Shown: piece by piece, positions 29,901 to 62,478 of the stretch
Layout of the letters: each line of letters starts with the position of its first letter
How positions within the stretch are numbered: the first letter of the stretch is position 1
NCBI GenBank assembly: GCA_025454405.1
Contig: JALOON010000011.1
Location: forward strand, 1-64,000
Reading direction: 5' to 3'
Source: Oscillatoriaceae cyanobacterium Prado104
Lineage (GTDB): Bacteria > Cyanobacteriota > Cyanobacteriia > Cyanobacteriales > Microcoleaceae
Length of the DNA: 64,000 nucleotides
The notes under the pieces: generated by a model
The model's input: only the letters and a program-made list of their open reading frames with translations
What the model was told of the DNA's origin: nothing
Databases searched by the model: none
Program-made: the position numbers and the translations under genes

Positions 29901-30001
29901 AGTAATTCGATACCCAGCCCCCAGGCAAAAGTTACAATTACCCAATATTTGAAAATTATTTACGCGCGATCGTCAATGAATATTTCGCCGTACAATCTCG
30001 A

Positions 30002-31270
30002 TTAATAACTCATTGCTTCAATCTCTTTATTAGCAGCATTTTGAGCCTGCAACATCGCCGATTCCAAGCTTTGCTCGCCCAACAAAGCACTAATAAACTG
30101 ATTGTTAAAATGAGTAAGAATTAACGGCAAATTCTCGTGAGACTGCCAAATTGTCGCGTAAGCTGCCCCGGCAACAAAAGGAGCGTATAAAGAATCGCGA
30201 TCGTACCCCAATTCTAACAAAATAGATTGGCGGCTAGGCAACACCACGCCTTGTTGCGCCCAAGCTTTCATCCCCTCTTTTCCAGTTAAATAAGCAATCA
30301 ATTCCCAAGCCACCGCTTTTTGTTTCGCTTGCTTGTTCATCACGTAGGCAACAGTGTAAGCCATCGTTCCCTTTTTGCCTGCGATTGCCGGCACTTCGGC
30401 TGTACCGAACTCCAGATTGGGAAAGGTTTCTTTTAAGTAAGGAATTGCCCACGGCCCCTCAATTACCATCGCAGCTTTGCCTTGCCCGAACATTTCGCTA
30501 CCCGAGGCTGCGCCCGCGTCGGAAGGTTGACCGGCCGATCGATCTTTTTGGTACAAATCTACAATTAATTGCAATCCTTTTAAACTCTCGGGACTGGCAA
30601 AAGCAGCATAACCGCGATCGTCAATTAATCTACCGCCAAACAGCCCGATCGTAAAATATTGACGCGCCAATTCCGGAGCAATTCCCAAACCGTAGCGTTC
30701 GATTCTGCCATCTCCATTTCGATCTGCACTCAACTTTTTAGCAAATTCCTGCAACTCTTCCCAAGTTTGCGGCGGTTCGATTAATCCGGCTTCCCGAAAC
30801 AACTGTTTGTTGTAGAATAGGGAAAGCGTAGAAAAGTCTTTCGGCAAACCGCAGATTTTCCCACCGTACTTGAAAGCCTCCAGCAATGTTGGTTCAAAAT
30901 CGGTTAGATCGAAATCGCTGCTGATATAATTGTCTAAAGGTTCTAAAACATTGCTCGCCATCATTAAAGGTGCTTCCACCGCATCTAAAAAAAATACATC
31001 AGCAGCAGCATCGCCGATCGACCGAGTTTTCAGAACATCCATGTATCGATCGGCGATCGCTTCGTATTTTACCTTAATATTGGGATGTGTTGCCTCAAAT
31101 TTTTGCAAGACCGCTTCTAGCAGTTTGCCCTCCGCAGGATTGCTCTGCCAACCGCTGAGAGTTACCGTATCAGTTCGCCCAACACTATTGTTAGTGTAAG
31201 TGTTCGTGCAGGCAGCGATTGCAATAATTACCAGCAGCAAAATTAGCCACTTTCCCGCAGATTTTCTCAT
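30002..31270 (-). CDS. ABC sugar transporter solute-binding lipoprotein
   Basis: 422 residues. Signal peptide with lipobox IAAC (Cys21), then a family 1 solute-binding fold (MalE/UgpB): VTLSGWQSNPAEGKLLEAVLQKFEATHPNIKV, DVFFLDAVEAPLMMASNVLEPLD, GLPKDFSTLSLFYNKQLFREAGL, MFGQGKAAMVIEGPWAIPYL and AWELIAYLTGKEGMKAWAQQ. It catches a sugar or polyol outside the membrane for a MalF/MalG-type permease. No permease or ATPase is adjacent; the MalF-like gene at 15761-16681 is the only candidate partner seen. Divergent from the chemotaxis operon. Confidence 0.92.
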   Translation of the reverse strand: MRKSAGKWLILLLVIIAIAACTNTYTNNSVGRTDTVTLSGWQSNPAEGKLLEAVLQKFEATHPNIKVKYEAIADRYMDVLKTRSIGDAAADVFFLDAVEAPLMMASNVLEPLDNYISSDFDLTDFEPTLLEAFKYGGKICGLPKDFSTLSLFYNKQLFREAGLIEPPQTWEELQEFAKKLSADRNGDGRIERYGLGIAPELARQYFTIGLFGGRLIDDRGYAAFASPESLKGLQLIVDLYQKDRSAGQPSDAGAASGSEMFGQGKAAMVIEGPWAIPYLKETFPNLEFGTAEVPAIAGKKGTMAYTVAYVMNKQAKQKAVAWELIAYLTGKEGMKAWAQQGVVLPSRQSILLELGYDRDSLYAPFVAGAAYATIWQSHENLPLILTHFNNQFISALLGEQSLESAMLQAQNAANKEIEAMSY

Positions 31271-31387
31271 AATAAAATATAATTTCTAGTAAAATTTCCT
31301 AACTTACCCAAGACATCCGACCATCCAATACAGTATATTGTACTCAGAATAGCAGTAAATTAGACCTTTACGAACCAGCAAACCGCC

Positions 31388-31753
31388 ATGTCAAAAGTAT
31401 TGGTAGTAGACGACGTACCCAGCGAATTAGAAATCATCTGCCGCATCCTGCAAGATGCGGGAATAGAAGTAATCCGGGCCGGTGACGGCGAAGAAGCGAT
31501 CGCCCGCATCCGAGAAATCCCCCCGGATCTGGTAGTTTTAGACGTAGTAATGCCGCGAATGAACGGATTTGAAGTCATCCGAGAATTGCGGGGCGATCGC
31601 AAAACCGCCCACTTGCCAGTAGTATTTTGCACGCACAAAAACACCGAGATCGATCGAGCTTGGGGAACGGATTTAGGAGCCGATGCTTATATTAGCAAAC
31701 CTTTTGAACCGCACCAATTAGTCAACATCGTGCAGCGCTTGCTTTCAGCATAA
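31388..31753 (+). CDS. CheY/PilH-type single-domain response regulator
   Basis: 121 residues forming only a receiver domain: acidic pocket VVDD (Asp8/Asp9), phospho-acceptor Asp52 in VVLDVVMPRMNGF, Thr/Ser switch in FCTHK and Lys in YISKPF. It takes phosphate from a CheA-type kinase; none is in the window. First gene of a likely operon with the CheW gene (47-base gap) and the giant receptor, which resembles pil-type chemosensory clusters that steer type IV pilus motility in cyanobacteria. Confidence 0.92.
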   Translation: MSKVLVVDDVPSELEIICRILQDAGIEVIRAGDGEEAIARIREIPPDLVVLDVVMPRMNGFEVIRELRGDRKTAHLPVVFCTHKNTEIDRAWGTDLGADAYISKPFEPHQLVNIVQRLLSA

Positions 31754-31800
31754 ATCCTCAATTCCCAATCTAAAATCTCAAATATAAAATCTCAAACCGA

Positions 31801-32301
31801 ATGACATCAATTGCAGGTAGCAGCACGGCAGAGAGAGCGACTACAACCAAACAATTTCTCCTTTTCGGTCAAGGAAACAGTCTTTTTGCGGTAGAATTAG
31901 AAGCAGTACGGGAAGTGCTTTCTTTAAAAGAACAACCCATTTCGCCAGTTCCCAATACCCTGCCATTTTTGCTGGGATTAACCAACTTGCGCGGTGAAAT
32001 CCTAGCAGTAGCCGACTTCGGTAACTTTACAGGCATCAGCCCCGTTGACATCTACCACCATCAGAGTCGCATCTTAGTTGTAGAAGCCCCCGATCCGCGA
32101 GACGTGAGATTGTCGAGAATGCGCATGGGATTAGCCGTTTCCGGCGTCGAAGGAGTTTTACCTCTCAATCCCGATCGCATAGTTTCTGCCATCGATGCCA
32201 GTCCCGAACTCGTCCCTTTTCTCAAAGGTTTGTACAATTGCGAAGGACGCTTGCTCATGATAGTTGATGTAGAAGCGATCGCTCATTCCGAACGCTGGTA
32301 A
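31801..32301 (+). CDS. CheW-like adaptor protein
   Basis: 166 residues with a complete CheW domain: FLLFGQGNSLFAVELEAVREVL, LLGLTNLRGEILAVADFGNF (the NLRG motif), a middle ILVVEAPD...MGLAVSGVEGVLPL and FLKGLYNCEGRLLMIVDVEAI. CheW links chemoreceptors to the CheA kinase. It lies between the receiver gene and the receptor gene; the 187-base gap to the latter is filled with GTTTTGA and AATCTAAA simple repeats. Confidence 0.92.
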   Translation: MTSIAGSSTAERATTTKQFLLFGQGNSLFAVELEAVREVLSLKEQPISPVPNTLPFLLGLTNLRGEILAVADFGNFTGISPVDIYHHQSRILVVEAPDPRDVRLSRMRMGLAVSGVEGVLPLNPDRIVSAIDASPELVPFLKGLYNCEGRLLMIVDVEAIAHSERW

Positions 32302-32488
32302 GTTGATAGTTGTTCGGGAGTTTTGAGTTTTGAGTTTTGAGTTTTGAGTTTTGAGTTGACAGTTAACTAATTACCGATTCGCAATTCTCAATTCTCCATT
32401 ACCAATTACCAATTACCGATCGCTCAATCTAAAATCTAAAATCCCAAATCTAAAATCTAAAATCGATCGCCAAATTATCAATTTTATC

Positions 32489-35400
32489 ATGAAACTTCTG
32501 TATTGTTTGCTTGCGACTACATACACCCTCACTTTACCTGACTTCTCGCAACCGCTAGTTGCGGGGTTAGCTAACAGCATCATTTGTATATGTTACTTTG
32601 GCATAGCCTTGCTGATTAGTTTGGGTTTGTGGCGCAACCGCCAAGCCGGATTCGACACCTTCGCCACAGTTACAGCACTGATATTTTGGAGTTGCGCTTT
32701 CGGCCACAGCGGCCACGCTGCCGAATACTTGGGGCTGCCGCACTCTCCAATTTGGCAAACAGCAGCCGATTGCATCACCGTATTTCCAGCGATCGCCTTT
32801 TTAAGGCTCTCAAACCGCTACGAATTATTAGTAGGTTCCACCCAAATTCTTAACTCTAAAAAAGCAACAGAACAAGCACTCAGCCAAACCACCCAACGAT
32901 TTCAAGCAATCTTCGATCGAGCCTTTCAATTCATCACCCTATTGCAGCCAGACGGCACTTTAATCGAAGCAAATCAAACAGCTCTAGAATTAGGAGATTT
33001 ACAAGCATCTGAAGTGCTGGGGCTGAAATTTTGGCAAGCACCTTGGTGGGCATCATCGACCACCCAGCAGCAGCGAATCAAAGCCAACATCAAACAAGCC
33101 ACAGCAGGCAAATTTGTCCGGGAAGAATACGAAATCACCGGAGCCAACAACCAAATAAGAGTAATTGACTTGTCATTTAAGCCACTGTTCGACGCAGCCG
33201 GAGAAGTATTTCAAATCCTCGCGGAAGGTCGCGACATCACATCGCGCAAACAAACAGAAGCAGCCTATCACCAACTAACCGCAGAACTAGAACAGCGAGT
33301 TAATGAAAGAACCGAGCAGATTTCGCAAGCTAACGCACAATTGCAACAGGAAATTCGCGATCGCACCGCAGCCGAACAAAAATTCAAAGCCTCAGAACAA
33401 TTCCTAAACAACATCCTCAACGCCATCCCCGACCCGATTTACGTCAAAGACGAACAGCACCGATGGTTAACATTAAACGACGCTTTTTGTCAATACATAG
33501 GGCGCAGCAGAGAAGAACTAATCGGCAAATCCTACCGCGACTTTTTGCCCCGACAAGAAGCAGATGCATATCGAGAAAAAGACGAATTAATTTTCTCAAC
33601 AAACAGCAGCAGCGAAACCCAGGAAAGCATTACAGATGCATCGGGAAATACCCGATTTTTCGCAGCTAAAAAATCAACATTTATCAGTGCCAGTGGCAGC
33701 AAAATTCTCGTCTCCGCCATCCGAGAAATCACCCAGCGAGTGCGCGTAGAAGAACAACTGCGACATACCCTCACACAAGTCGAAGACTCCCAAAACCTGC
33801 TGCGCGCGGTAATTGACGCCACCCCAGACCTGATCTTCGTCAAAGACCAAAACTTTCGGTACACCCTAGTCAACACAGGCTTCACCACTGCCTTTGGCAA
33901 AACCGCAGCAGAAATCATCGGCAAAGACGACGTAGAAATCGGCATACCCCCAGAACAGATTTTTGGCACCCTCCACACACAGTCCGGCCGCCCGCGACCG
34001 GGATTCCGAGCCGACGACGCAGCCGCCCTGGGCGGTCAAGTCATCCACAACCCCAACGATACCGCCAACTTAGCAGACGGCAAAGAACACACTTTTGACA
34101 CCCAGAAATCGCCCCTCAAAGACGCAACAGGAAACATTATCGGACTCCTCGGTTTCTGTCGCGACATTACAGAACGCCGCGCATCCGAACAGCAGCTACT
34201 GCGGCTCAAAGCCATCCTCGAAGCTACAACCGATTGGGTAGGCATGGCCGACTCCCAACAGCGCAGCATCTATCTCAACCGCGCGGCCAGACAAATGTTG
34301 AGAGTTGGCGAAAACTCCGATTTAGCTGGAATCAGCATTTCCGACGTGACATCTCCCAAAAGTATCGACACTATAACCAATGTCGGCATCCCGGCAGCTT
34401 GTCGCGATGGAGTGTGGAGCGGCGAGACAATTTGGCAGACTTTAGATGGCGAAGAAATACCAGTTTCTCAAGTAATTATTGCCCACAAATCCGACAACGG
34501 AGAAGTTGAATTCCTATCAACGATCGCCCGCAATATTACCAGCCGCAAGCGCACGGAACAAGCCTTGCGCCAAAACTTGCAAATGCTCGACCTCGCCAGC
34601 GATGCTTTAATTATTCGATCGGTAGATGGCACGATCGATTTCTGGAACCAAGGCGCTGAAAAAATGTACGGTTGGACGAAGCAAGAAGCTGTGGGCAAAT
34701 GCACTCACACTCTATTTACCACCACTTTTCCCCAACCTTTAGAAACAATAATGGCATTGTTAGAAGAGCGGGATTATTGGGAAGGAGAACTGATTCACAC
34801 CACCAATTACAACACCACAATTACTGTATTCAGCCGCTGGACGTTGCAGCGTGACGAACGGGGCAACCCCAAGGCAATTTTAGAAACCAACAATGACATT
34901 ACAGCGCGCAAGCAAGCAGAAATCGAAAACCAAAGATTGATCTCGATCGTCGAAAGCACCTCGGATTTTATCGGGATGTCAACGATGGAAGGTGAGGCAT
35001 TTTACGTGAACTCTGCCGGCATGAAGCTAGTGGGAATTCAAAGTATCCAAGACGCCAAATCCCTGAGCGTGCTGGAATATTTAATGCCAGAAGACATCGA
35101 GCAATTTACAGAAGAAATTATCCCCGCAGTTCGGGAAAGCGGCTCTTGGCAGGGCGAGTTTCGGTTCAAGCATTTTGTCACCGGTGAGTCCATTCCTGTT
35201 GACTACAGCGTATTTACAGTCAAACACCCAGAAACCAACGAGCCGATAGGTTTGGCAGCAGTTAGCCGCGACATCAGAGAGCGCAAACGAGGAGAACAGT
35301 TACTGCGCGATCGCGAACGACTGTTCCGAGCGATTTTCGACCAATCTTTCCAATTCATCGGCCTGTTAAAACCCGACGGCACCGTTTTGCAAGCCAACCA

Positions 35401-38400
35401 AACAGCCCTCGCAGCCGCCGGCGTCACCCTTGAAGAAGTAGCGGGCAAGCCGTTTCCAGAAACCCCGTGGTGGCAGATTTCCGCAGCAGCCAAGCAACAG
35501 GTACAAGAAGCGATCGTCAGGGCCGCCAACGGCGAATTAATCCGCTATGAAGTAGACGTGCTTGTTAGCAACGGTGGCGTGGCTACCATCGACTTTTCTC
35601 TCAAACCCATCACCGACGACAGCGGCAAAGTCATCCTGCTAATTCCCGAAGGGCGAGATATCAGCGATCGCAAAGCCTTAGAACGAGAACTCTCTTTGCG
35701 TCAAGCCCGCTTTGACGCCTTTTTTGCTGCCACATCGGCGGGAATGTTCATCACTGACGACCAGCTTCGCTTCATGCAGTTCAACGACAAACTTGCCGAA
35801 CTCGGAGGGCAGCCGGTTTCGGCATACATCGGCAAAACAGTATGGGAAGCCGAACCGGAAATGGCACCGATCGTCGGCCCGATGTACCAACAGGTGTTCG
35901 CTGACAACCAGCCGGTGTTAAATATCGAAACCCGCCATCCCACCAAGGCACAGCCGGATGTTTTGCGGGATTGGCTGGCTTCTTACTTTCCCCTGCCTGG
36001 AGAGGACGGCAAACCGATCGGCATCGGCGGTTTCATTTTGGAAGTGACCGATCGCAGAAATTTAGAACGAGAACTCGCTTTGCGTCAAGCCCGCTTTGAT
36101 GCCTTTTTCGCAGCAGCCCCGGCCTTAATGTGCATCTTGGACGATCGGTTGCAATTCGTGCAAGTCAACGAAAATTTAGCTGAAACTAACGGACCCTCGG
36201 CGGCAGAACACCTCGGCAAAACAGTTGTCGAAATAGCACCGGAAATAGCACCGACTTTAGAGCCCTTATTGCAACAAGTTCTTGCCCAAAACCAACCGAT
36301 TTTGAACGTAGAAATATCCGGTTCAACTTCCCAACAACCTGGCATCATGCGGGATTGGCTGGCGTCTTATTTTCCTTTACCGGGAACTGACGGCAAACCA
36401 ATGGGCGTCGGGGGAGTAGCAGTAGAGATTACCGATCGCAAAAAAGCAGAAGCAGAGCGCGATCGATTTTTCACACTCTCTCTCGACTTGCTGTGCATCG
36501 CCGATTTTGAAGGCAAATTCAAGCGCGTCAATCCCGCTTGGGCAACAACCCTCGGCTACACAGTAGAGGAAATGGAAAACCAAGCTTTTCTCGATTTCGT
36601 GCATCCCGAAGACCGCGAAAAAACCGTAGCTGAAGCGGCAATAATAGCTGAGGGCGTTGAAACAATGGCTTTTGAAAATCGCTACCGGTGCAAAGATGGT
36701 TCCTACAAATGGCTGTCATGGAAATCGCGACCGCTGCTAGAAGAAAAACTCATGTATGCAGTTGCTCGCGACATTACCGACAGCAAACATACAATTAGTC
36801 AATTGCAAGAAACAAGTTCGCAATTAGCCAGATCCGAAGACGAACTGCGCCAGCAAAGCACTCTCTTACAATTGCTGATTAACAACATGACCGACGGCGT
36901 AATTGCTGCTGACGAAAATGGCAATATTTTCTTGTTCAATCCCGCTGCTGAAACTATGTTTAACTTGGGTTTGACAGATGGTCCTCCCGATGAATGGTCA
37001 GCAAAATACGGATTGTTTTTGCCAGATACCGTCACTACTTATCCCGCAAACGACTTGCCTTTAGCGCGCGCGATTCGAGGAGAATCAGCAGACGGTGTAG
37101 AGATGTTTGTCCGGCACGCAGCCAAACCGGATGGCTTGTGGGCGAAAATTAGTGGCAGGCCCCTCAAAGACGAAACGGGGGCGCTCAAAGGTGGTGTAAT
37201 TGTTTGTCGCAACGTCACTGAAGAGAGAGCTTCGCAACAGCGGATGCAGCAGTTAGCTGAGGCACAGGAACGCTTGCTGCAAGAACTCAAAACCCGGCAA
37301 AATGCCCTCGATGAATCTGCGATCGTCAGCGAAACAGACCTCAAAGGCACGATTACCTACGTCAATGAAAGATTCAGTCAAATATCCGGTTACACAATGG
37401 GAGAACTGCTGCATCGCGACCACGGCATCGTCAATTCCGGCTACCATTCCAAACCATTTTTTCAAGAAATGTGGCTGACAATTTCTCGCGGTTTGGTGTG
37501 GAAAGGGGAAATCAGAAACAGGCGCAAAGATGGCTCTTTTTACTGGGTGGATTCGACGATCGCGCCGATTTTTGACACCAGCGGTACGATCGTTAAATAC
37601 ATCGCCATCCGCTTTGACATTACCGAACGCAAAGAGGCAGAAGAACGGCTGGAAAAATTGGCAGCAGAACGCAAAGCTGAAGCTGATTCGCTGACGCAGC
37701 AAGTTCTCAAATTGTTGGGAGAAATTAAAGGTGCGGCTCAAGGCGATTTAACTGTTAGGGCGGAAGTTACTAACGATGTTTTAGGTGCGGTTGCCGATTC
37801 TTTTAACTTCTTGGTCGGCTCGTTGCGGAAGGTAGTAACTGGCATTCAAAATTTGGCAGAACAGGTAACATCTGCCACGGGCGAATCGATTAACAATACC
37901 AGCGAACTTACCCAACAAGCAGAAGTTCAAGCAACAAAAATATCTTCGATCGTGCGCGAAATCGAGCGAATTGTGAATTCGATCCGCGACGTGCGAGATG
38001 TGTCGGTGCGGGCTGAAGCTGTTGCCCAGCAGTCTTCTCACACGGCAGAAGCAGGCGGGGTGGCGGTCGATCGAGCTGTCGAAGGCATCAACGAATTGCG
38101 GCAGACGATCGCTTCTACTTCTAAAATGATGAAGCGTTTGGGCGAGTCTTCGCAACAAATTGGCAAGATTGTAACTTCGATTTCTCAACTTGCTTCCCAA
38201 ACCAATTTGTTAGCTCTCAATGCTACTATTGAAGCAGCGCGGGCCGGCGAACAAGGTTTGGGTTTTGCAGTGGTTGCTGAAGAAGTGCGGAAACTGGCAG
38301 AAAGATCCGCAGGCGCTACTGAAGAAATCTCAGAAATTGTCGGTACAATTCAAGAAGAAATTAGCCGGGTGATGAAGGCAATGGAAGCGGGAACCCAGGA

Positions 38401-38674
38401 AGTTGTCGAAGGTACGAAGCTCGCTAACGAAGCTAAAACTCACTTGAATGCGATTATCGAAGTGAGCCGAGAAATGAATTCTTTGGTGCAGAACATTACG
38501 AGGGCGGCTGCCAAACAAACTGTTTCTGCTGAGGAAATTTCTAGCAATATGCAACAAGTAAATGAGATTGCCACTACGACCTCACAAAAAGGTTCCGATG
38601 TCAAGGCTTCTTTGGAGGATTTGTCCGGTTCTGTTGACAAGTTGCAAAAGTCAGTTGCTAATTTTCGATCGTAA
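32489..38674 (+). CDS. Giant chemoreceptor: ETR1-like membrane module, ~12 PAS, HAMP-like, MCP domain
   Basis: 2061 residues. Residues 20-110: three hydrophobic helices resembling the ethylene-receptor membrane domain, with Tyr36 and a CxxxH (Cys69, His73) at ETR1-like spacing but Asn29 where ETR1 has Asp. From ~135 to ~1710 about 12 PAS units follow, many with PAC ends of the RDIT type; PAS at ~1070-1190 and ~1195-1320 are a recent tandem duplication (RQARFDAFFAA, RDWLASYFPLPG in both). A coiled coil lies at ~265-305. At ~1735-1790 a HAMP-like segment, then the MCP signalling hairpin with SQTNLLALNATIEAARAGEQG. It should signal through CheW/CheA to taxis. Confidence 0.9.
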   Translation: MKLLYCLLATTYTLTLPDFSQPLVAGLANSIICICYFGIALLISLGLWRNRQAGFDTFATVTALIFWSCAFGHSGHAAEYLGLPHSPIWQTAADCITVFPAIAFLRLSNRYELLVGSTQILNSKKATEQALSQTTQRFQAIFDRAFQFITLLQPDGTLIEANQTALELGDLQASEVLGLKFWQAPWWASSTTQQQRIKANIKQATAGKFVREEYEITGANNQIRVIDLSFKPLFDAAGEVFQILAEGRDITSRKQTEAAYHQLTAELEQRVNERTEQISQANAQLQQEIRDRTAAEQKFKASEQFLNNILNAIPDPIYVKDEQHRWLTLNDAFCQYIGRSREELIGKSYRDFLPRQEADAYREKDELIFSTNSSSETQESITDASGNTRFFAAKKSTFISASGSKILVSAIREITQRVRVEEQLRHTLTQVEDSQNLLRAVIDATPDLIFVKDQNFRYTLVNTGFTTAFGKTAAEIIGKDDVEIGIPPEQIFGTLHTQSGRPRPGFRADDAAALGGQVIHNPNDTANLADGKEHTFDTQKSPLKDATGNIIGLLGFCRDITERRASEQQLLRLKAILEATTDWVGMADSQQRSIYLNRAARQMLRVGENSDLAGISISDVTSPKSIDTITNVGIPAACRDGVWSGETIWQTLDGEEIPVSQVIIAHKSDNGEVEFLSTIARNITSRKRTEQALRQNLQMLDLASDALIIRSVDGTIDFWNQGAEKMYGWTKQEAVGKCTHTLFTTTFPQPLETIMALLEERDYWEGELIHTTNYNTTITVFSRWTLQRDERGNPKAILETNNDITARKQAEIENQRLISIVESTSDFIGMSTMEGEAFYVNSAGMKLVGIQSIQDAKSLSVLEYLMPEDIEQFTEEIIPAVRESGSWQGEFRFKHFVTGESIPVDYSVFTVKHPETNEPIGLAAVSRDIRERKRGEQLLRDRERLFRAIFDQSFQFIGLLKPDGTVLQANQTALAAAGVTLEEVAGKPFPETPWWQISAAAKQQVQEAIVRAANGELIRYEVDVLVSNGGVATIDFSLKPITDDSGKVILLIPEGRDISDRKALERELSLRQARFDAFFAATSAGMFITDDQLRFMQFNDKLAELGGQPVSAYIGKTVWEAEPEMAPIVGPMYQQVFADNQPVLNIETRHPTKAQPDVLRDWLASYFPLPGEDGKPIGIGGFILEVTDRRNLERELALRQARFDAFFAAAPALMCILDDRLQFVQVNENLAETNGPSAAEHLGKTVVEIAPEIAPTLEPLLQQVLAQNQPILNVEISGSTSQQPGIMRDWLASYFPLPGTDGKPMGVGGVAVEITDRKKAEAERDRFFTLSLDLLCIADFEGKFKRVNPAWATTLGYTVEEMENQAFLDFVHPEDREKTVAEAAIIAEGVETMAFENRYRCKDGSYKWLSWKSRPLLEEKLMYAVARDITDSKHTISQLQETSSQLARSEDELRQQSTLLQLLINNMTDGVIAADENGNIFLFNPAAETMFNLGLTDGPPDEWSAKYGLFLPDTVTTYPANDLPLARAIRGESADGVEMFVRHAAKPDGLWAKISGRPLKDETGALKGGVIVCRNVTEERASQQRMQQLAEAQERLLQELKTRQNALDESAIVSETDLKGTITYVNERFSQISGYTMGELLHRDHGIVNSGYHSKPFFQEMWLTISRGLVWKGEIRNRRKDGSFYWVDSTIAPIFDTSGTIVKYIAIRFDITERKEAEERLEKLAAERKAEADSLTQQVLKLLGEIKGAAQGDLTVRAEVTNDVLGAVADSFNFLVGSLRKVVTGIQNLAEQVTSATGESINNTSELTQQAEVQATKISSIVREIERIVNSIRDVRDVSVRAEAVAQQSSHTAEAGGVAVDRAVEGINELRQTIASTSKMMKRLGESSQQIGKIVTSISQLASQTNLLALNATIEAARAGEQGLGFAVVAEEVRKLAERSAGATEEISEIVGTIQEEISRVMKAMEAGTQEVVEGTKLANEAKTHLNAIIEVSREMNSLVQNITRAAAKQTVSAEEISSNMQQVNEIATTTSQKGSDVKASLEDLSGSVDKLQKSVANFRS

Positions 38675-38810
38675 ATGAAGGAAGAAGGAAGAGTTGATAG
38701 TTGATAGTTGAAAATTAGGTAACTGGGAATTGGGGATTGGGAATTGGGCTCTCGCGTGGCTCTAGGATTGGGAATTCTCCCACTCTCCTTCTCTCTCCAT
38801 TTCCCCTCTA

Positions 38811-39206
38811 TTATTTGCCAAAACGTGCTAGGATAATTCCCAATTGAACGGCGATTACTCCGAGTACGGCACTGCCCGACCAGTACAAAAAAGCTAAAGT
38901 ATAAGAGCGATCGCGCAGCAAAATGCTTGTCTCTAAACCGTAAGTTGAAAAAGTAGTATAAGCTCCTAAAAAGCCTGTTGTTACCATCAGTCGCAGTTCC
39001 AGTGGAACGGGCACGCGCTCCAGGGCGAGGGTGATAAAAAATCCCATAGCCAAACAGCCGGTAACGTTAATAAAAAAAGTTCCGTAGGGAAAAGCCGTAC
39101 TAAAGCGATTCGCAAACCATAACGTGATATAATATCGGCTCAAAGCTCCCGCGATCGCGCCTAAACTAATCGCGATCGGCAACCGGAGATTCGGATCTTG
39201 CAGCAT
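38811..39206 (-). CDS. crcB: Fluoride channel CrcB/Fluc
   Basis: 131 residues from ATG 39204-39206; a 10-residue upstream extension comes from a CAGTTGA repeat and is left out. Four membrane helices with the family motifs [26 protein letters not shown] and [15 protein letters not shown] (the polar track of the Fluc pore). Dimers let fluoride leave the cell. Single-gene unit; no fluoride riboswitch was recognised upstream. Confidence 0.93.
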
Positions 39207-39369
39207 AAATTTTAGTGGATAGTTGACAGTTGACAAAAGTGCCTGCGTCAGAGCTCGCGAATTGCATCATTAGTGCGATCGGACCGATAGTATTGTAGGA
39301 TGAAATGGACGATCGATCGGGCCGATCGTACTGAAAACTTGCACTTAAAACTTATAAAGGGTGTTTGTA

Positions 39370-39999
39370 ATGAAACTGATACTGGCAGGAGTAGACGGCG
39401 ACTTAGTTCGAGCTTGGGAAAATACCTGCGGCAATATGGAAAATGTAACAGTACATGCCGGCTCGATTTTCGAGGTCAAATGCGATGCGATCGTCAGTCC
39501 GGCAAACAGTTACGGCTTTATGGACGGCGGCCTCGATTTGGCAATTTCAGAATTTTTTGGCTGGCACGTTCAAGAACGCTTGCAAAAACTGATTCAGACT
39601 CGCCATCACGGCGAATTGCTAGTTGGAAATGCAGAAGTTGTAGACACCGACCATGCAGAAATTCCCTACTTAATATCTGCCCCGACGATGCGCGTTCCAG
39701 CAATTTTAAAAGAAACAGTAAATGTCTATCTAGCAACGCGGGCAGTTTTAATTTTAGTAAAATTTGGCACTCTCCCGGACGGAACTCCCGTAAAACACAT
39801 CATCGAAACTGTAGCTATTCCGGGAATGGGTACAGGAGTAGGCAAAGTGCCTCCCGATATCTGCGCCCATCAAATGAAAGTGGCGATCGAAGATATCCTG
39901 CTGTCTCAGTATGAATTTCCTCAATCTTGGCTGCACGCTCAAAGGTGCCACCAGCTTTTATATTCGAGTGATGTTCGAGACTTGCAACAGGAAAATTGA
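39370..39999 (+). CDS. Macro-domain protein
   Basis: 209 residues from ATG 39370 (a GTG nine bases upstream is less likely; a GGG-type site fits the ATG). The macro fold is shown by VHAGSIFEVKCDAIVSPANS near 29-48, GFMDGGLDLAIS with the ligand-binding loop, LVGNAEVVDTDHAEIPYLISAPTM, and AIPGMGTGVGKVPPDICAHQM near 155. Macro domains bind ADP-ribose or related nucleotides and some remove ADP-ribose from targets. This subgroup is often annotated as phage tail-like or Appr-1''-p processing; the substrate is unknown. Stands alone. Confidence 0.85.
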   Translation: MKLILAGVDGDLVRAWENTCGNMENVTVHAGSIFEVKCDAIVSPANSYGFMDGGLDLAISEFFGWHVQERLQKLIQTRHHGELLVGNAEVVDTDHAEIPYLISAPTMRVPAILKETVNVYLATRAVLILVKFGTLPDGTPVKHIIETVAIPGMGTGVGKVPPDICAHQMKVAIEDILLSQYEFPQSWLHAQRCHQLLYSSDVRDLQQEN

Positions 40000-40475
40000 C
40001 AGCTTCGATCCCCCCTAGCCCCCCTTAAGAAGGGGGGGACAAGAGTGTTTTCAAAGTCTCCCTTTTTAAGAAAGATTTAGGGAGATCTAAACAGAGTGAT
40101 TCTTCAAGTCCCCCTTTTTAAGGGGGATTTAAACATCGATACCAAACTATTAGGTGCGTTAAACCTGAGATCTTGCACCATTACCAATAAGACTGTAGGG
40201 TCCGGCGTGGTAATCGAATAACGAGTGAAGCATATTCGATTACCACCTTGAAAGGGTTCGCCAACAGCTTTAAACGAAGCAGATAGGTTAAATAAACCCG
40301 CCCCAATCCCACGAAAAATGCCTAATTGACTGCAGGAGCAAGATGTACGCTAAACCGTACCTGCAAATAGGCGGTCTCCTACACACGAGCTAGGATTCAA
40401 GAGATACAATGTAAATAACTATAGAATGCAGGTAGAGATTGTTAGTTAAGCTGCGAATTTTCAGGAGAAATTCCC
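40000..40475. repeat. Spacer with C/G hairpins and a perfect 14-bp inverted repeat
   Basis: CCCCCCTTAAGAAGGGGGG at about 40013-40038 and CCCCCTTTTTAAGGGGGATTTA at about 40111-40132 are the common cyanobacterial C-rich repeat; GTGGTAATCGAATA (40207-40220) pairs with TATTCGATTACCAC (40233-40246); 40254-40320 looks like part of the element at 62521-62695. No gene is supported. Confidence 0.7.
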
Positions 40476-41333
40476 ATGAATCAAATTAAAACTGCTGCTT
40501 TGTTAGGCTTATTAAGCGCGCTGTTAATTACTGTTAGTTATTGGGTAATTGGCGGTACTGGCGGCGCAATTATCGGTATTGGTTTGGCCGCCGCGATGAA
40601 TTTGGGTTCTTGGTATTATTCCGATAAAATTGCGCTGGCGGCTTACGGGGCTAGAGCAGTAACTGCCAACCAAGTTCCCGGACTTTATAGAATGGTAGAA
40701 AGACTCTCGCAGCGCGCTAATTTACCGATGCCGGGAGTTTACATTATTCCTACTAATGCTGCTAACGCTTTTGCTACGGGGCGCGATCCGGAACACGCTG
40801 CAGTTGCCGTTACTGAAGGCATTATGAATATCCTCTCGGAGGAAGAACTCGAAGGTGTCATCGCCCACGAGCTCAGCCACATCAACAACCGCGACACGCT
40901 GACGCAAGCGGTGGCTGCGACGGTAGCGGGGGCGATTTCCTGGTTGGCGCAAATGGCGAGTTACAGTATGTGGTTTAGTGGAGGTAGGGACGATCGCGGA
41001 TCGAATCCCGTGGGTTTGTTGTTGACGATTATCCTCGCACCGGTGGCTGCTTCGGTGATTCAGCTAGCGATTTCGCGCACGCGGGAGTTTTCGGCGGATG
41101 CGGGCGCTGCTAGGCTGACTGGCAACCCGCGGGCGTTGGCGAGTGCCCTGCAACGCTTGGAAAGCAGCGCGCGACAAATGCCTCTAGATGGCAATCCGGC
41201 TTTTGCACCGTTGCTAATCGTGAATTCGTCTGCTGGAGATTGGTTTAGAAGCTTGTTTTCTACTCACCCGAGTACCGCAGCGCGGATTCAAAATTTGATG
41301 AAACTGGAACAAGAATTGCCCAGTTCTTATTAA
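40476..41333 (+). CDS. htpX: HtpX-type M48 zinc metalloprotease
   Basis: 285 residues: two N-terminal membrane helices (about 6-45), the HExxH motif HELSH at 131-135 within GVIAHELSHINNRDTL, two more hydrophobic segments at ~142-160 and ~176-196, and the third zinc ligand in SRTREFSADAGAARL near 206. HtpX cuts damaged membrane proteins at the cytoplasmic side. An AGGAG site precedes the ATG. Followed by the helical repeat gene at 41472 after a CAGTTGA array, on the same strand. Confidence 0.93.
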   Translation: MNQIKTAALLGLLSALLITVSYWVIGGTGGAIIGIGLAAAMNLGSWYYSDKIALAAYGARAVTANQVPGLYRMVERLSQRANLPMPGVYIIPTNAANAFATGRDPEHAAVAVTEGIMNILSEEELEGVIAHELSHINNRDTLTQAVAATVAGAISWLAQMASYSMWFSGGRDDRGSNPVGLLLTIILAPVAASVIQLAISRTREFSADAGAARLTGNPRALASALQRLESSARQMPLDGNPAFAPLLIVNSSAGDWFRSLFSTHPSTAARIQNLMKLEQELPSSY

Positions 41334-56790: not shown

Positions 56791-57066
56791 GACAAGCTGA
56801 GGATTGATGGACTGTTTCAATTTTGGTAAATAGTATTCAGCAGCCAGGAGTCAGGAGTCATAATTCAGATAATTGCACAATCTTTTGTTGCAGGCGATCG
56901 TCAATGTCCTAACTGCCCTAGCAGTTGCTATAATATCTTTTCCAGTTAAAAGGTTTGTAGTGCGGACTTAAGTCCGCAAATTCAAATTAATCAGAGGACT
57001 CAAGTCCTCCCTACAAACTAATTAAACGAGTAAAGTTGGTGTGGGAATTAGGTGAGGAGAAAAATT

Positions 57067-60000
57067 GTGAGTACGAGTGACAGCAAATCGTCTATTTTTA
57101 TTATTACAGGAATGCACCGTTCCGGTACATCTCTAACAGCGTCTTTGTTTCAGAAAATCGGAGTAGATATTGGCAAAAAATTAGTCGGTCCTGCCGACGG
57201 AAATATTAGAGGTCATTTTGAGAATGTTGATTTTGTAGAATTCCATAAAAGTGTTTTGCGATCGCGCGGAATCGACGAACTCGGCTGTACGTTTGAGAAA
57301 ACAATTCCAGTGGCGCGCGAATTTGTAGAAACTGCCAAAAACGCGATCGCCCAAAATCAGCAAACTCACAAACATTGGGGCTGGAAAGACCCGCGAACTG
57401 CTTTATTTTGGGATTTTTGGCTGACTTTATTGCCCGAAGCTAATTTTATTTGCGTTTACCGTTCTCCCTGGGAAGTAGTTGATTCTCTTTACCGTCGCGG
57501 TACGGATCTCAGTTTGCTGAACCATCCCGAAATGGCAGTGAAAATGTGGATTCACTACAACCAACAAATTTTAGAACTTTATGAAAGCTTTCCCGAACGC
57601 TGTTTGCTGGCTAATGTTTACGCGATCGGCAATACTCCCGAACTTTTTATCGATCGAGTTAACGAAAAATTTAATGTTAATTTAACTGCTGCGATCGGCG
57701 ACAATTTTGAACGGTCTTTATTAGTAAACGATATTCTCAAAAGTCACCGACCTGGTTTGATAGAACAATATTTCCCCGAAGCTTTAGAACTGCATGCAAA
57801 GCTAGAAGAAATCAGCGGAATGGCGCAGGCAGAAGTTAGTTTATCGGAGTATCCAGCTTGCGATCGATCTGAATACCCCGTCTGGCCTTTTGAAGATTGG
57901 CTGAAAATTCGCCTCCTCGAAAAACAGCAAAAAAATACCGATCGCGAGCTCAAACAGTGGCAAGAACAATTTCAACAAGCCCAGACAAAAGTGTTGAGAT
58001 TGGAAGCAGAATTGGGGGAAACTCAAGTACAGCTTGACGGCAAAGAATCCCAATTTCAAGAAGCTTTGACAAAGCTGCTGGGATTGGAATCAGAATTGGG
58101 AGAAACGCAGGTACAGCTTGCTGGCAAAGAATCGCAATTTCAAGAAGCTTTGGCAAAAGTGTTGAGATTGGAAGCAGAATTGGGGGAAACTCAAGTACAG
58201 CTTGCTGGCAAAGAATCCCAATTTCAAGAAGCGCTGGCAAAACTGCTTGAATTAGAAGCAAAATTGGGCGAAACTCAGGCACAGCTTGATGGCAAAGAAT
58301 CGCAATTTCAAATTGCTTTGAAGAAAGTGCTGGATTTGGAAGTTGAATTAGGAGAAAATCAGATAAAGATAGAAGAGAAAGAATTTAGATTGCAAGAAAA
58401 GGCAGCGCTGTTACAGCGACAGAAAGACGAGACAGATCTGATTCAAGAAAAACTGAGAGAAACTGTCATCAATTTAGAGCGATCGCGCCAAGAAACAGAA
58501 ATTGCTCGCGCGGAAATAGCAATAATTAAATCTACGGTTTTTTGGAAAGTTCGGGAAAAATTGTTAAGTTTAAAATGCTGGTGGCGCGAACTATTTCCGA
58601 GATTTGTTTTTTCATTAGATGCGCCTACTAACTGGCAAATTTACGAACCTAACTTAATAATTGCAGGCTGGGCTTTTCACAGTCGATTGAGCATTACAGC
58701 AGTACGCGCTACAATTGATGGCAAGAGTTTTGCAGGGATTTGCGGCATCGAAAGAACCGATGTTGCCCGAGCTCACTCTAATATTGTTGGCGCTAGAAAA
58801 TCAGGTTTTCAAATCGAATTTGAAGCCCCTCCCGGCAGGCATGAAGTCCTGCTAGAAGTGCAAGATAGTAAAGGTAAATGGCATCTTTTGGCTGCTTATC
58901 CGCTGTCAGTTTCGACAATTCAAGCATCTTTTGATGCCCCAGCAATTTGGCAACAAAAGCAAGGTCAAATTTTGTTTGCAGGTTGGTGCTGCCACCACGA
59001 TCGCAGAATTGCTAAACTAACATTTGTCTGCGGGGAAACTTCTGTAGAATGCGCTTACGGTTTGCGCCGCAAAGATGTCGGCGAAGTATTTCCCAACTGG
59101 GTTAACAGTTCCGAAAGCGGGTTTGAAGTCCTCGTCGATTTGCCTGCGGGAGAATGGCCGGTTTCTCTGGAAGCCGAGTTAGAAAATGGGGAGATTTTGT
59201 CGTTTCAAGCACCGAAAAAATTGACGTTGCGCCCTTACGATATCTGGCAAATAAGCGCGGATAAATTTGGGGAATTGTCGAAGTTTATCGCGGCATTGCG
59301 CCAGCGGGCAAAGGAAAGAAAACAGCGTCTGGGCAGAATTGTGCCGATGCCTTGGGAAATCGCTGCGGTACTCCGCCAGTTTGTCAAAATTTACCAGCAG
59401 CAAAAACAGTTGGTATCGCCGGATGAATTGCTGCCACCTCGCGGTTTTTCTGTACCCAAACCTATTGATAGATACGAGGCTTGGTTGCGAGTGAATCAGT
59501 GGAACGATCGCGCGCGCGATTATTTAATTTCTCGGTTAAAATCTTGTCGGGAACCGCTGCCTAAAATTTCGGTAGTAATGCCAGTTTACAACCCGCAGGT
59601 AGAGTTTTTGTCAAGCGCGATCGGCAGCGTTATCGCTCAAGTTTATCAGAATTGGGAACTCTGCATTGCGGACGATCGCAGCACCGATCCGCAGGTTGCT
59701 GAAACTTTGCAAAAATGGGCGGCAAAAGACAGTCGCATCCTCTTAAAATTTCGCGAAGCAAACGGAAATATCAGCGCTGCTACCAACAGCGCCGCCGAAC
59801 TTGCAACGGGCGATATTATCCTATTTTTGGACAACGATGATGAATTAACTCCCGACGCATTAGGGGAAGTGGCGCTGCATTTTGCCCTGCATCCAGACAC
59901 CGATTTTCTCTACTCGGATGACGACAAAATCGACACGGAAGGGCGCAGATTTGCCCCGCAATTCAAACCGCAATGGTCCCCCGAATTGCTGCTTTCCTAT

Positions 60001-62478
60001 ATGTATCTCGGTCATTTGTGCGCTGCCAGACGGGAGATTTTTGAACGCATTGGCGGCTTGCGAATCGGGTTTGAAGGTTCACAAGATTACGATTTTGCTT
60101 TGAGGGCAACCGAAATTTCTCGCCGCGTCGCGCACTTGCCGTTAGTGCTATATCATTGGCGGACGGCACCCGGTTCTACGGCTGTATCTGGTGCCGCTAA
60201 ACCCGCTAGTTTTGCGGCGGGACAAAAAGCAATTCAAGAAGCATTAAACCGCCGCCAAATTAACGGGAACGTCGCCCAGCATCAATGGGCAATTAAAGAA
60301 AACTTGGGAATATTTGCTCAAGATTTCCCCGACAGCGGGCCGTCGGTGACAATTATTATTCCTACTAAGAATCAAGTCAAGTTACTGAAAGCTTGTTTGG
60401 ATTCTTTAGAAAATACCACTTACAAAAATTTTCAAGTTACTGTTATCGACAACGAAAGCGACGATCCAAAAACTTTGGAGTATTTGCAGCAATTGAATTG
60501 CCGAGTTTTGCGAATTGAAAACAAAAGGGGCAGGTTTAGTTTTGCTGGAATTAACAACCGTGCAGTTGAAAAGAGTGACAGCGAATATGTTTTGTTTTTG
60601 AACAACGATACAGAGGTAATTAACCCGCGCTGGCTGAGTCAAATGATGGGATACGCTCAAATTTCTAGTGTGGGCGCAGTCGGCGCGAGGCTGCTGTATC
60701 CTGATGGCAGAATTCAGCACGCGGGAGTGATTCACGGGCTGCATCACGGTTTGGCAGGCCACGCTTTTAAGTTGATGGATCGGGAAAATCGCGGCTATCT
60801 TTCGCAGGCGATGGTAACTCGAAATTACTCGGCTGTGACTGCTGCTTGCCTGCTGACTCCGCGCCAATTGTTTTTAGAATTGGGCGGTTTTGACGAGCAA
60901 AATTTTGCTGTTGCTTACAATGATGCGGATTACGGTTATCGGTTGTTAGAAAGAGGTTATCGCTGCGTTTACTGTCCCGATGCGGAACTGCTTCACAAAG
61001 AGGGAACTTCGAGAGGTTTTGGCGACAATCCGAGGGAAGTTGCAGCGTTTCGCCGGATGTATGCTGGGAAAAATGATGGTTTTTACAGCCCTCATTTGTC
61101 TTTGGAAGATGAGTATTTTCGCATTCAGCCGAGACGGTTCTTTTTGAAGGAAGAAGGAAGAGGGAAGAAGGAAGAAGGAAGAGGGAAGAAGGAAGAAGGA
61201 AGAGGGAAGAAGGAAGAAGGAAGTTTGGCAGCGAATGTTGTAGCGGATGTATTTGCAGTTGGTAAAAAAGAAGGGTTGGGGTTTGCCGATCCTGGTTTGG
61301 TGGAAGTGGGAAATAGTTCTATTTATCCGGTGAGGGTTTTGATGTGCAGCAATTCGCTGGATTTTACGGGCGCGCCGCTGCATCAGTATGAAATAGCTGT
61401 GAAATTGGCGGCTGAAGGTGTTGTAAAACCGATCGTACTTTGTGTTTCTGACGGGCCGCTGCGTCAAATTTACGAACAGCAGGGCATTGAGGTTATTATT
61501 TGCAATAATCCTCTCGAACATATCTACCAGCGCGATGCTTATGATGCTGCCATAGATGGTTTTAGCCAGGAAATTAACCAGCTAAAAGTAGATGTCATTT
61601 ATGCCAATACTTTAGAAAACTTTTTTGTAGTTGATGCGGCGCAGCGCATTGACATTCCTACTGTTTGGAACGTCCACGAAAGCGAACCTTGGCAAACTTA
61701 TTTTAACAGGTTTGGATCGGAAATTGCGGCGCGGGCTTTGGAGTGTTTTCGCTTTCCTTATCAGGTGATTTTCGTTGCTGATGCGACGCGCGATCGATAT
61801 TTGCCTCTCAACAGCCATCACAATTTTACAGCGATCCATAACGGTTTGGATTTGAGCAAACTTGACTGTTCGGAAAATCGCGAATCGGCTAGGAAAAGTT
61901 TGGATGTTGCTGGGGAAGATGTGGCAATTTTGCTGTTGGGGACTGTTTGCGAAAGAAAAGGACAGCACGATTTAGTGAAAGCGCTTTCGCTGTTGCCGGA
62001 AAAATGGCACAATAGAATTAAGTGTTTTATTGTGGGCGATCGACCGAGCATTTACAGCAATCAATTAGCCGATTTGGTGAATGGATTGCCTGCCGAATTG
62101 CAGGATAGAATAACAGTAGTTTCGGAAACGCCGGAAACTGCGAAGTATTATAAAGCTGCGGATATTTTTGTTTGCACTTCCCGCGTTGAAAGTTTTCCGA
62201 GGGTGATTTTGGAGGCGATGGCTTCGGATTTGCCAATTATTACGACTCCTGTTTTTGGAATTAAAGAACAAGTGAGGCCGGGGATTAATGGTTTATTTTA
62301 CACGCCCGATCGCCCGGATGAGTTAGCTAGCGCATTGAATAGTTTATTGGAGGATGAATCTTTGCGCCAGCAGTTAGCAGAAAATGCTAAATTCGTTCTG
62401 AATTCGCTCAATACTTTTGAGGAGATGACTCAAGCTTATGCAGGTATTTTTTGTGAAGCTTATTTTAGCAGTCATTAG
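57067..62478 (+). CDS. Giant sulfotransferase - coiled coil - GT2 - GT2 - GT4 protein
   Basis: 1803 residues from GTG 57067, chosen because GAGGAG (57054-57059) lies 7 bases upstream; a GTG at 57052 would overlap that site. Order: sulfotransferase-like domain (~10-220) with PAPS loop FIITGMHRSGTSLTASLF; coiled coil with five 28-residue repeats (57970-58389); two beta-type domains (~520-735, YEPNLIIAGWAFHSR and GQILFAGWCCHHDR); GT2 (from ~839, PKISVVMPVYNP, with LFLDNDDE); second GT2 (from ~1098, VTIIIPTKNQ, with LFLNNDTE); low-complexity KEEGRGK linker; GT4 (~1425-1800) with VESFPRVILEAMASDLPI (E-x7-E). It should build and decorate a surface glycan. Confidence 0.9.
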   Translation: MSTSDSKSSIFIITGMHRSGTSLTASLFQKIGVDIGKKLVGPADGNIRGHFENVDFVEFHKSVLRSRGIDELGCTFEKTIPVAREFVETAKNAIAQNQQTHKHWGWKDPRTALFWDFWLTLLPEANFICVYRSPWEVVDSLYRRGTDLSLLNHPEMAVKMWIHYNQQILELYESFPERCLLANVYAIGNTPELFIDRVNEKFNVNLTAAIGDNFERSLLVNDILKSHRPGLIEQYFPEALELHAKLEEISGMAQAEVSLSEYPACDRSEYPVWPFEDWLKIRLLEKQQKNTDRELKQWQEQFQQAQTKVLRLEAELGETQVQLDGKESQFQEALTKLLGLESELGETQVQLAGKESQFQEALAKVLRLEAELGETQVQLAGKESQFQEALAKLLELEAKLGETQAQLDGKESQFQIALKKVLDLEVELGENQIKIEEKEFRLQEKAALLQRQKDETDLIQEKLRETVINLERSRQETEIARAEIAIIKSTVFWKVREKLLSLKCWWRELFPRFVFSLDAPTNWQIYEPNLIIAGWAFHSRLSITAVRATIDGKSFAGICGIERTDVARAHSNIVGARKSGFQIEFEAPPGRHEVLLEVQDSKGKWHLLAAYPLSVSTIQASFDAPAIWQQKQGQILFAGWCCHHDRRIAKLTFVCGETSVECAYGLRRKDVGEVFPNWVNSSESGFEVLVDLPAGEWPVSLEAELENGEILSFQAPKKLTLRPYDIWQISADKFGELSKFIAALRQRAKERKQRLGRIVPMPWEIAAVLRQFVKIYQQQKQLVSPDELLPPRGFSVPKPIDRYEAWLRVNQWNDRARDYLISRLKSCREPLPKISVVMPVYNPQVEFLSSAIGSVIAQVYQNWELCIADDRSTDPQVAETLQKWAAKDSRILLKFREANGNISAATNSAAELATGDIILFLDNDDELTPDALGEVALHFALHPDTDFLYSDDDKIDTEGRRFAPQFKPQWSPELLLSYMYLGHLCAARREIFERIGGLRIGFEGSQDYDFALRATEISRRVAHLPLVLYHWRTAPGSTAVSGAAKPASFAAGQKAIQEALNRRQINGNVAQHQWAIKENLGIFAQDFPDSGPSVTIIIPTKNQVKLLKACLDSLENTTYKNFQVTVIDNESDDPKTLEYLQQLNCRVLRIENKRGRFSFAGINNRAVEKSDSEYVLFLNNDTEVINPRWLSQMMGYAQISSVGAVGARLLYPDGRIQHAGVIHGLHHGLAGHAFKLMDRENRGYLSQAMVTRNYSAVTAACLLTPRQLFLELGGFDEQNFAVAYNDADYGYRLLERGYRCVYCPDAELLHKEGTSRGFGDNPREVAAFRRMYAGKNDGFYSPHLSLEDEYFRIQPRRFFLKEEGRGKKEEGRGKKEEGRGKKEEGSLAANVVADVFAVGKKEGLGFADPGLVEVGNSSIYPVRVLMCSNSLDFTGAPLHQYEIAVKLAAEGVVKPIVLCVSDGPLRQIYEQQGIEVIICNNPLEHIYQRDAYDAAIDGFSQEINQLKVDVIYANTLENFFVVDAAQRIDIPTVWNVHESEPWQTYFNRFGSEIAARALECFRFPYQVIFVADATRDRYLPLNSHHNFTAIHNGLDLSKLDCSENRESARKSLDVAGEDVAILLLGTVCERKGQHDLVKALSLLPEKWHNRIKCFIVGDRPSIYSNQLADLVNGLPAELQDRITVVSETPETAKYYKAADIFVCTSRVESFPRVILEAMASDLPIITTPVFGIKEQVRPGINGLFYTPDRPDELASALNSLLEDESLRQQLAENAKFVLNSLNTFEEMTQAYAGIFCEAYFSSH
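57970..58389. repeat. Five 84-bp coding repeats (28-residue coiled-coil unit)
   Basis: Five in-frame copies of an 84-base unit coding FQEALxKLLxLExELGETQ-type text, four heptads each; the third and first units share long identical DNA stretches, so the array expanded recently. It links the sulfotransferase domain to the rest of the giant protein. Confidence 0.9.
61147..61222. repeat. GGAAGAA simple repeat inside the giant glycosyltransferase gene
   Basis: About 76 bases of GAAGGAAGA/GGGAAGA units, read in frame as four KEEGRGK-type repeats between the second GT2 and the GT4 domain. The same sequence type is found only in spacers elsewhere in the window (12498-12530, 22025-22074, 44848-44901, 49965-50010). 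Confidence 0.92.

Follow-up and report, generated by a model that had tools for sequence, protein, structure and literature searches.

A cyanobacterial multi-PAS chemoreceptor with a derived membrane module related to the ethylene-receptor domain ETR1_N

What does a chemoreceptor sense when its membrane domain is laid out like that of a plant ethylene receptor? The question is raised by a gene on contig JALOON010000011.1 of Oscillatoriaceae cyanobacterium Prado104 (assembly GCA_025454405.1), of which positions 1 to 64,000, referred to below as the window, were analysed. An open reading frame (ORF) at 32489-38674 on the forward strand encodes a methyl-accepting chemotaxis protein (MCP) of 2061 amino acids (aa) that combines an N-terminal membrane module, a chain of PAS domains and a C-terminal MCP signalling domain in a single polypeptide (Table 1). 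A preliminary description made from the DNA letters had given the same ORF and the same direct joining of membrane module to MCP domain, and had placed Asn29, Tyr36, Cys69, His73 and an RYELLV junction (residues 110-115) where we also find them; it proposed that the protein is an 'ethylene, copper or derived ligand sensor'. The answer we favour, with moderate confidence and on the strength of sequence comparisons, is that the protein is probably a receptor for redox or energy taxis, whose membrane input is a derived member of the ETR1_N superfamily and may bind copper, and that it is probably not an ethylene receptor.

Homology of the membrane module to ETR1_N

Scanned alone, the N-terminus of the window protein matches the Pfam family ETR1_N (PF25487; curated cut-off 27 bits) over residues 26-81 at 17.6 bits and E 0.0046, and in a scan of the whole protein the same family appears at E 0.4. 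The relationship can be followed through the clade of variant modules to which the protein belongs, comprising 49 distinct sequences, 27 from the window's genus and 22 from elsewhere. ETR1_N is matched by 22 of 24 clade members at E <=1 (best 3.5e-7), no other Pfam family is matched by more than 3 of the 24 at that threshold, and NCBIfam gave no family found in more than two of them. When 20 other clade members were scored singly, 16 matched ETR1_N at E <=0.01, four (L050, L053, L054 and L071) gave no match at E 0.01, and two exceeded the curated cut-off (L055, 30.8 bits; L059, 27.5 bits). Comparison of a variant profile with one of canonical ethylene domains returned E values of 2.9e-7 and 1.6e-11 in two runs, and each profile recovers some of the other's members. 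A sequence search of the PDB with both profiles gave a single match, at E 0.37. Given the clade-wide matches and the profile-profile comparison, the kinship with the ETR1 membrane domain that had been proposed is well supported, the module appearing to be a distant ETR1_N relative, and in the profile search the N-terminus fell in no unrelated membrane family.

Convergence of an unrelated three-helix membrane family upon ETR1 would accommodate the sub-threshold scores of the window protein and of 18 of the 20 other members scored singly, as well as the long branch on which the clade sits. This explanation was rejected, and we hold it to be very improbable, on account of the reciprocal profile matches, the profile-profile E value, the ETR1_N matches throughout the clade, the two members over the cut-off, and a helix count and Tyr/Cys/His spacing that are the same as in ETR1. 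In a tree of 70 rows the variants form their own branch, separate from the canonical domains and from a small GGDEF-linked intermediate group (support 100/99), and the branch was retained with a Shimodaira-Hasegawa-like approximate likelihood ratio (SH-aLRT) of 100 in a 62-row tree from which eight long or intermediate rows had been left out; when grouped apart from the intermediates, the canonical set received support of just 75/42. The tree is unrooted, and the order of origin of canonical and variant forms is not read from it.

The module was matched in 27 of 29 genomes of the same genus (missed in G002 and G006, and present as a fragment only in G003), and a 56% relative was found in another family of the same order (G089). 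The 17 named relatives of the module belong to cyanobacterial records, among them Microcoleus, Tychonema, Lyngbya, Oscillatoriales and one with the title Richelia, and by these the window genome has a Microcoleus-like look. A profile (A1) built from eight genus rows and three outsiders matches 20 of 291 and 26 of 388 genomes of the class; these are rough counts from overlapping sets, with some matches canonical or intermediate and at most 11-14 candidates scored per genome.

Residues at the ethylene site and the conserved helix faces

ETR1 has seven binding residues, Tyr32 among them, and its etr1-4 allele is Ile62Phe. Mutation of ETR1 Cys65 or Asp25 abolishes ethylene binding, and a model places Asp25 in contact with Lys91 (PMC11819568). 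A salt bridge from this Asp to a conserved Lys has also been proposed (PMC13012798), and binding by ETR1 depends on Ile35, Pro36 and Ile62, among other essential residues (PMC6586836).

In the variant clade these positions are partly kept and partly replaced. The position of Asp25 is taken by Asn29 in 47 of 48 readable variants (27/27 from the genus; among 21 readable others, 20 Asn and one His), so that the preliminary placement of Asn29 opposite Asp25 is borne out by alignment and the residue is fixed in the genus. Phe66 replaces Ile62 in 49/49, and residue 40, at Pro36, is never Pro (Ala or Gly in 27/27 genus sequences, and Ala, Gly, Ser or Thr in 21/21 readable others). Tyr36 (Tyr32) is present in all 48 readable variants, Ile39 (Ile35) in all 27 genus sequences, Cys69 (Cys65) in 45 of 48 readable variants (27/27 in the genus, 18/21 readable others), and His73 (His69) in every variant (27/27 and 22/22). 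To these the clade adds a second His, His76 (48/49), together with Gln90 and Asp94 (each 49/49). Asn29, Phe66, His73, Gln90 and Asp94 co-occur in 47 of the 49, and the only invariant columns of a 24-row alignment are Tyr36, Phe66, His73, Gln90 and Asp94. In 36 canonical proteins, by comparison, the columns of Asn29, Tyr36, residue 40 and Phe66 hold Asp (32) or Asn (4), Tyr (36), Pro (35) and Ile (34), and those of Cys69, His73, His76, Gln90 and Asp94 hold Cys (34), His (35), Glu or Asp (30), Lys (32) and Ala (36). ETR1 Lys91 falls on Gln90 according to MAFFT and one hhalign run and on Asp94 according to the other hhalign run; Lys is absent from both candidate positions across the 49 variants, and 7 of 24 variants have an Arg or Lys within residues 87-101, two residues before Gln90.

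As aligned, four elements of the ethylene site are different in the clade, which holds another set of polar residues fixed. The copper ligands Cys65 and His69 have their counterparts in the window protein, Asp25, Pro36, Ile62 and Lys91 do not, and judged by these residues the module would not be an ethylene receptor. The opposite view would make the protein a working ethylene chemoreceptor, in which Cys69 and His73 hold Cu(I), Asn29 replaces Asp25 at lower affinity, and ethylene steers gliding. It can draw on the retention of Cys69, His73, Tyr36 and Ile39 throughout the genus, on the Asn found at the Asp25 column of a few canonical proteins, on Arabidopsis ETR1, in which the Asp-to-Asn receptor is described as still functional with an affinity about 100-fold lower (review PMC13012798), and on SynEtr1, which affects phototaxis (PMC6682694). 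However, mutation of Asp25 in ETR1 is also reported to eliminate binding (PMC11819568), the clade has uniformly exchanged Ile62 and Pro36, both essential in ETR1 (PMC6586836), the Lys91 partner of Asp25 is absent from both candidate positions, and its newly invariant residues differ from those of ethylene receptors; we therefore regard a working ethylene chemoreceptor as quite improbable. Of the sensor originally proposed, the plain ethylene version is not supported, with Asn29 fixed, Ile62, Pro36 and Lys91 changed and other residues newly invariant, and copper or a derived ligand, the better half of that proposal, is kept as a candidate.

Other combinations of these residues occur outside the clade. 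The four GGDEF-linked proteins that are intermediate between canonical and variant ETR1_N (L066, L068, L117 and L118) all have Asn at position 25, keep Pro36, Cys65 and His69, and have neither a Lys at the Lys91 column nor the second His. The window genome itself contains four other ETR1_N proteins over the cut-off, and because at least one of them (L002) has canonical residues, a canonical-type receptor is not missing from this genome. Two more of the four, L004 (contig C141) and L005 (contig C30), have Asn at position 25, and in the alignment the copper histidine is replaced by Gln in L005 and the copper cysteine by Ile in L004.

An AlphaFold2 model of the module contains helices at residues 21-49, 57-81, 87-96 and 98-110. 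Conservation is one-sided on each of the three transmembrane helices, TM1 to TM3 (permutation p 0.0004, 0.019 and 0.0001, respectively, for ideal helices with boundaries set by hand), and Asn29, Tyr36, Cys69, His73, His76, Gln90, Asp94 and Thr97 all lie within 57 degrees of the conserved direction. These faces fit an inward-facing polar site, without amounting to proof of one. The ratio of nonsynonymous to synonymous substitution rates (dN/dS) of the module is 0.13-0.19 between the window and 13 orthologues, and 0.09-0.64 in six closer pairs; the membrane module is under purifying selection.

PAS array, output domain and neighbouring genes

Pfam, with 12 stretches for PAS_4 and 12 for PAS, and the unit boundaries agree on a count of twelve PAS units, in line with the preliminary estimate of about 12. 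The last of them, PAS12, sits shortly before the MCP domain and matches the structures of MmoS (3ewk, E 3.5e-45), Aer (8dik, E 6.2e-23) and NifL (2gj3, E 1e-16). The flavin contacts described for Aer, His53, Asn85, Arg115 and Trp70 (PMC9668731), align with His1645, Asn1677, Arg1708 and Trp1662 of PAS12, and these pocket residues are present in all 10 aligned sequences (the window protein and nine more), an alignment that took in only orthologues with the literal search motif. Going by its residues, PAS12 would be a PAS domain of the Aer/MmoS type. The number of units varies, from 4 to 11 unit-boundary matches across 12 complete orthologues, and PAS1, PAS11 and PAS12 are present in 12/12 at >=67% identity while the middle units come and go. 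PAS1, which is TodS-like by way of its paralogue PAS7, adjoins the membrane module. The redox or ligand inputs that had been attributed to the array thus have plausible carriers in PAS12, with its pocket residues for flavin adenine dinucleotide (FAD), and in PAS7, with its likeness to TodS PAS1. The claim that two units are freshly duplicated did not survive: PAS8 and PAS9 share 59% of their residues and form an old pair, and a fresh duplication was ruled out by their standing at separate places in 7 of the 12 complete orthologues.

It could be argued that the membrane module is a mere dimerising anchor and signal relay, and that sensing is left to the PAS array, chiefly to PAS12 and to the TodS-like PAS1/PAS7. 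The Aer flavin-pocket residues of PAS12, and the constancy of PAS1, PAS11 and PAS12 beside a variable middle, are what one would expect in that case. But an anchor would have no need of near-invariant polar His, Gln, Asp and Asn residues in the bilayer, kept across histidine kinases and the MCP alike, nor of helices conserved on one side (p 0.0001 to 0.019), and we find the anchor explanation doubtful.

At the C-terminus the window protein carries the MCP hairpin-tip motif. Among 13 orthologues that run to a stop codon, 12 have it as well, and all 12 complete intact genus orthologues end in an MCP domain; in the exception, L006, the frame is interrupted and an MCP region lies further on in the locus. 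A weak HAMP-like match follows PAS12 (E 0.061), and no GAF domain was listed in the Pfam scan of the whole protein. Among the 22 variants from outside the genus, 17 have a histidine-kinase phosphorylation-site motif, one has only the ATPase motif and four have no simple motif, with the MCP motif in none of the 22 (L112 being short and L115 truncated by the end of its stretch). The same motif is absent from all 61 canonical ETR1_N proteins sampled, which were taken from 60 hand-picked stretches and of which 44 have a histidine-kinase motif and 17 no simple motif (one being cut short).

Table 1. Features of the chemoreceptor gene and its chemosensory neighbours in the window
Feature	Coordinates	Strand	Evidence
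Multi-PAS MCP with N-terminal ETR1_N-like membrane module, 2061 aa	32489..38674	+	ORF, Pfam
Derived ETR1_N-superfamily membrane module, residues 1-115	32489..32833	+	Pfam, profile-profile, residue states, model helices, dN/dS
TM1, residues 21-49, with Asn29 (ETR1 Asp25) and Tyr36 (ETR1 Tyr32)	32549..32635	+	Model block with predicted local distance difference test (pLDDT) 85-92, conserved face
TM2, residues 57-81, with Phe66 (Ile62), Cys69 (Cys65), His73 (His69) and His76	32657..32731	+	Model, conserved face
TM3, residues 87-110, model break at 97, with invariant Gln90 and Asp94	32747..32818	+	Model, alignments, conserved face
Array of 12 PAS units, residues 131-1712	32879..37624	+	Pfam, unit boundaries
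PAS1, paralogue of PAS7	32879-33241	+	49/114 identical
PAS7, closest solved relative TodS PAS1 (5hwt)	35279..35665	+	E 2e-25
PAS8 and PAS9, duplicated pair	35666..36433	+	76/128 residues identical, 66% DNA identity
PAS12, Aer/MmoS-type by residues, with His1645, Trp1662, Asn1677 and Arg1708	37220..37624	+	Structure matches, pocket residues
MCP signalling domain, residues 1845-2027	38021..38569	+	Pfam MCPsignal E 3.3e-41
CheY-like single-domain response regulator	31388..31753	+	Pfam Response_reg E 1e-27
CheW-like adaptor	31801..32301	+	Pfam CheW E 1.2e-25

The gene lies in a chemosensory neighbourhood that recurs among its orthologues. CheW is directly upstream of the MCP gene in 15 of 16 orthologous loci, the sixteenth (L006) beginning at a contig edge, and CheY is upstream in 13 of the 16, contig edges included. 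In locus L012 the MCP gene is followed by a CheA that combines Hpt, ATPase, CheW and receiver domains, and an 84% orthologue of this CheA is located on another contig of the window genome (C31, 29486-32317), so the chemosensory cluster is split in the window strain. Here a CrcB gene takes the place of CheA after the MCP gene (38674-39236).

The gap between cheW and the MCP gene (32302-32488) contains short degenerate repeats, in runs of gagtttt and of ccaatta, and the distance between the two genes apparently varies among orthologues. An Rfam scan of positions 30000-41000 and a search of a plasmid collection each returned no match. Near the window end is a second very long ORF, of 1808 aa with a GTG start (57052-62478).

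Proposed working and comparison with known systems

Together with CheY and CheW, and with a CheA orthologue encoded elsewhere in the genome, the MCP would form a cyanobacterial chemosensory cluster, of which it is the receptor and which probably acts on gliding or type IV pili, and several inputs may be integrated by this one receptor. At the membrane, the ethylene site differs from that of ETR1, with the Asp25-Lys91 pair gone and Ile62 and Pro36 replaced. Inside the bilayer, the polar set of Asn29, Tyr36, His73, His76, Gln90, Asp94 and usually Cys69, on the conserved faces of the three helices, would most likely bind Cu(I) or a different metal, or else a small ligand that is polar or bound to a metal. 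Our first guess is copper or a ligand bound to it, since the clade retains His73 and usually Cys69 and adds a second His. The ensuing helix shift would travel along TM3 and the PAS chain as far as the MCP tip, there biasing CheA, and PAS12 would contribute a redox (energy-taxis) signal immediately ahead of the signalling domain.

Several points weigh against such a receptor as we describe it. The binding of metal, ligand and flavin is predicted, and the link to motility is drawn from gene order and domain type. Cys69, which corresponds to the copper thiolate of ETR1, is replaced by Ser in L050 and by Gly in L053 and L054 and falls in a gap in L051, and with its loss in some variants copper is not certain for the clade as a whole. 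The register of TM3 is ambiguous, and the tree tool warned of long branches meeting in both runs. The AlphaFold2 model is of middling quality (mean pLDDT 76.7 and predicted template modelling score (pTM) 0.62, with five models ranging from 51.0 to 76.7), and when it was compared with the PDB by Foldseek, 125 matches were returned at E <=10 and none at 0.001.

A bolder idea, which we put forward tentatively as possible rather than probable, is that the ethylene-receptor fold underlies a second class of sensors, so far unrecognised, which this clade represents. Its intramembrane Cu(I) site would have been remodelled with an HxxH motif, Gln and Asp so as to sense copper or a copper-binding ligand (e.g. 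CO, O2 or a different alkene); cyanobacterial kinases would make use of it, and in the genus of the window strain it would be coupled directly to motility, alongside a flavin switch of the MmoS/Aer type. If so, the clade would reveal what use is made of the ethylene-receptor fold apart from ethylene sensing. Asp25 is central to current models of ethylene binding by ETR1 and of its coupling to Lys91, and a natural clade without any of Asp25, Lys91, Ile62 and Pro36, but with Tyr32, His69 and, for the most part, Cys65 retained, amounts to an experiment already set up on the roles of these residues. It also bears on whether the ETR1_N fold senses metals or other ligands, and the chemoreceptor form would make the function of the module readable as movement.

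A fusion of ETR1_N with an MCP was named in no title or abstract opening among the matches listed for ethylene-binding domains with MCPs, chemotaxis and chemoreceptors, a search with subscription papers outside its scope, nor in the available portions of PMC6944256, PMC11819568, PMC6682694 and PMC7700396. With the ethylene receptors (ETR1, SynEtr1, GeiEtr1/2, AzoEtr1; PF25487) the protein shares a three-helix N-terminal membrane module, two-component-type outputs, and the Tyr, Ile, Cys and His at ETR1 positions 32, 35, 65 and 69. It differs from them in the change of Asp25 to Asn, of Pro36 to Ala, Gly, Ser or Thr and of Ile62 to Phe, in having no Lys at the Lys91 candidates, in its invariant or near-invariant His76, Gln90 and Asp94, in a score below the Pfam cut-off, and, within the window's genus, in its MCP output. 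The cyanobacterial MCPs of the PilJ/PixJ/HmpD type offer a likely parallel; the window MCP would resemble them in standing beside CheY and CheW, followed in L012 by a CheA with a receiver domain, and would depart from them in its ETR1_N-like module, its PAS chain and the lack of any listed GAF domain. TodS is a toluene sensor whose PAS1 binds toluene, and PAS7 matches this domain (5hwt), with PAS1 of the window protein as its paralogue; the likeness is one of overall match, and the two PAS arrays differ. Closest in its presumed redox role is the family of FAD-PAS sensors that includes Aer, MmoS and NifL: PAS12 has the flavin-pocket His, Asn, Arg and Trp of Aer and is predicted to bind FAD shortly before an MCP domain, whereas the window protein, unlike these sensors, also has eleven more PAS units and, at its N-terminus, a membrane module of sensory appearance.

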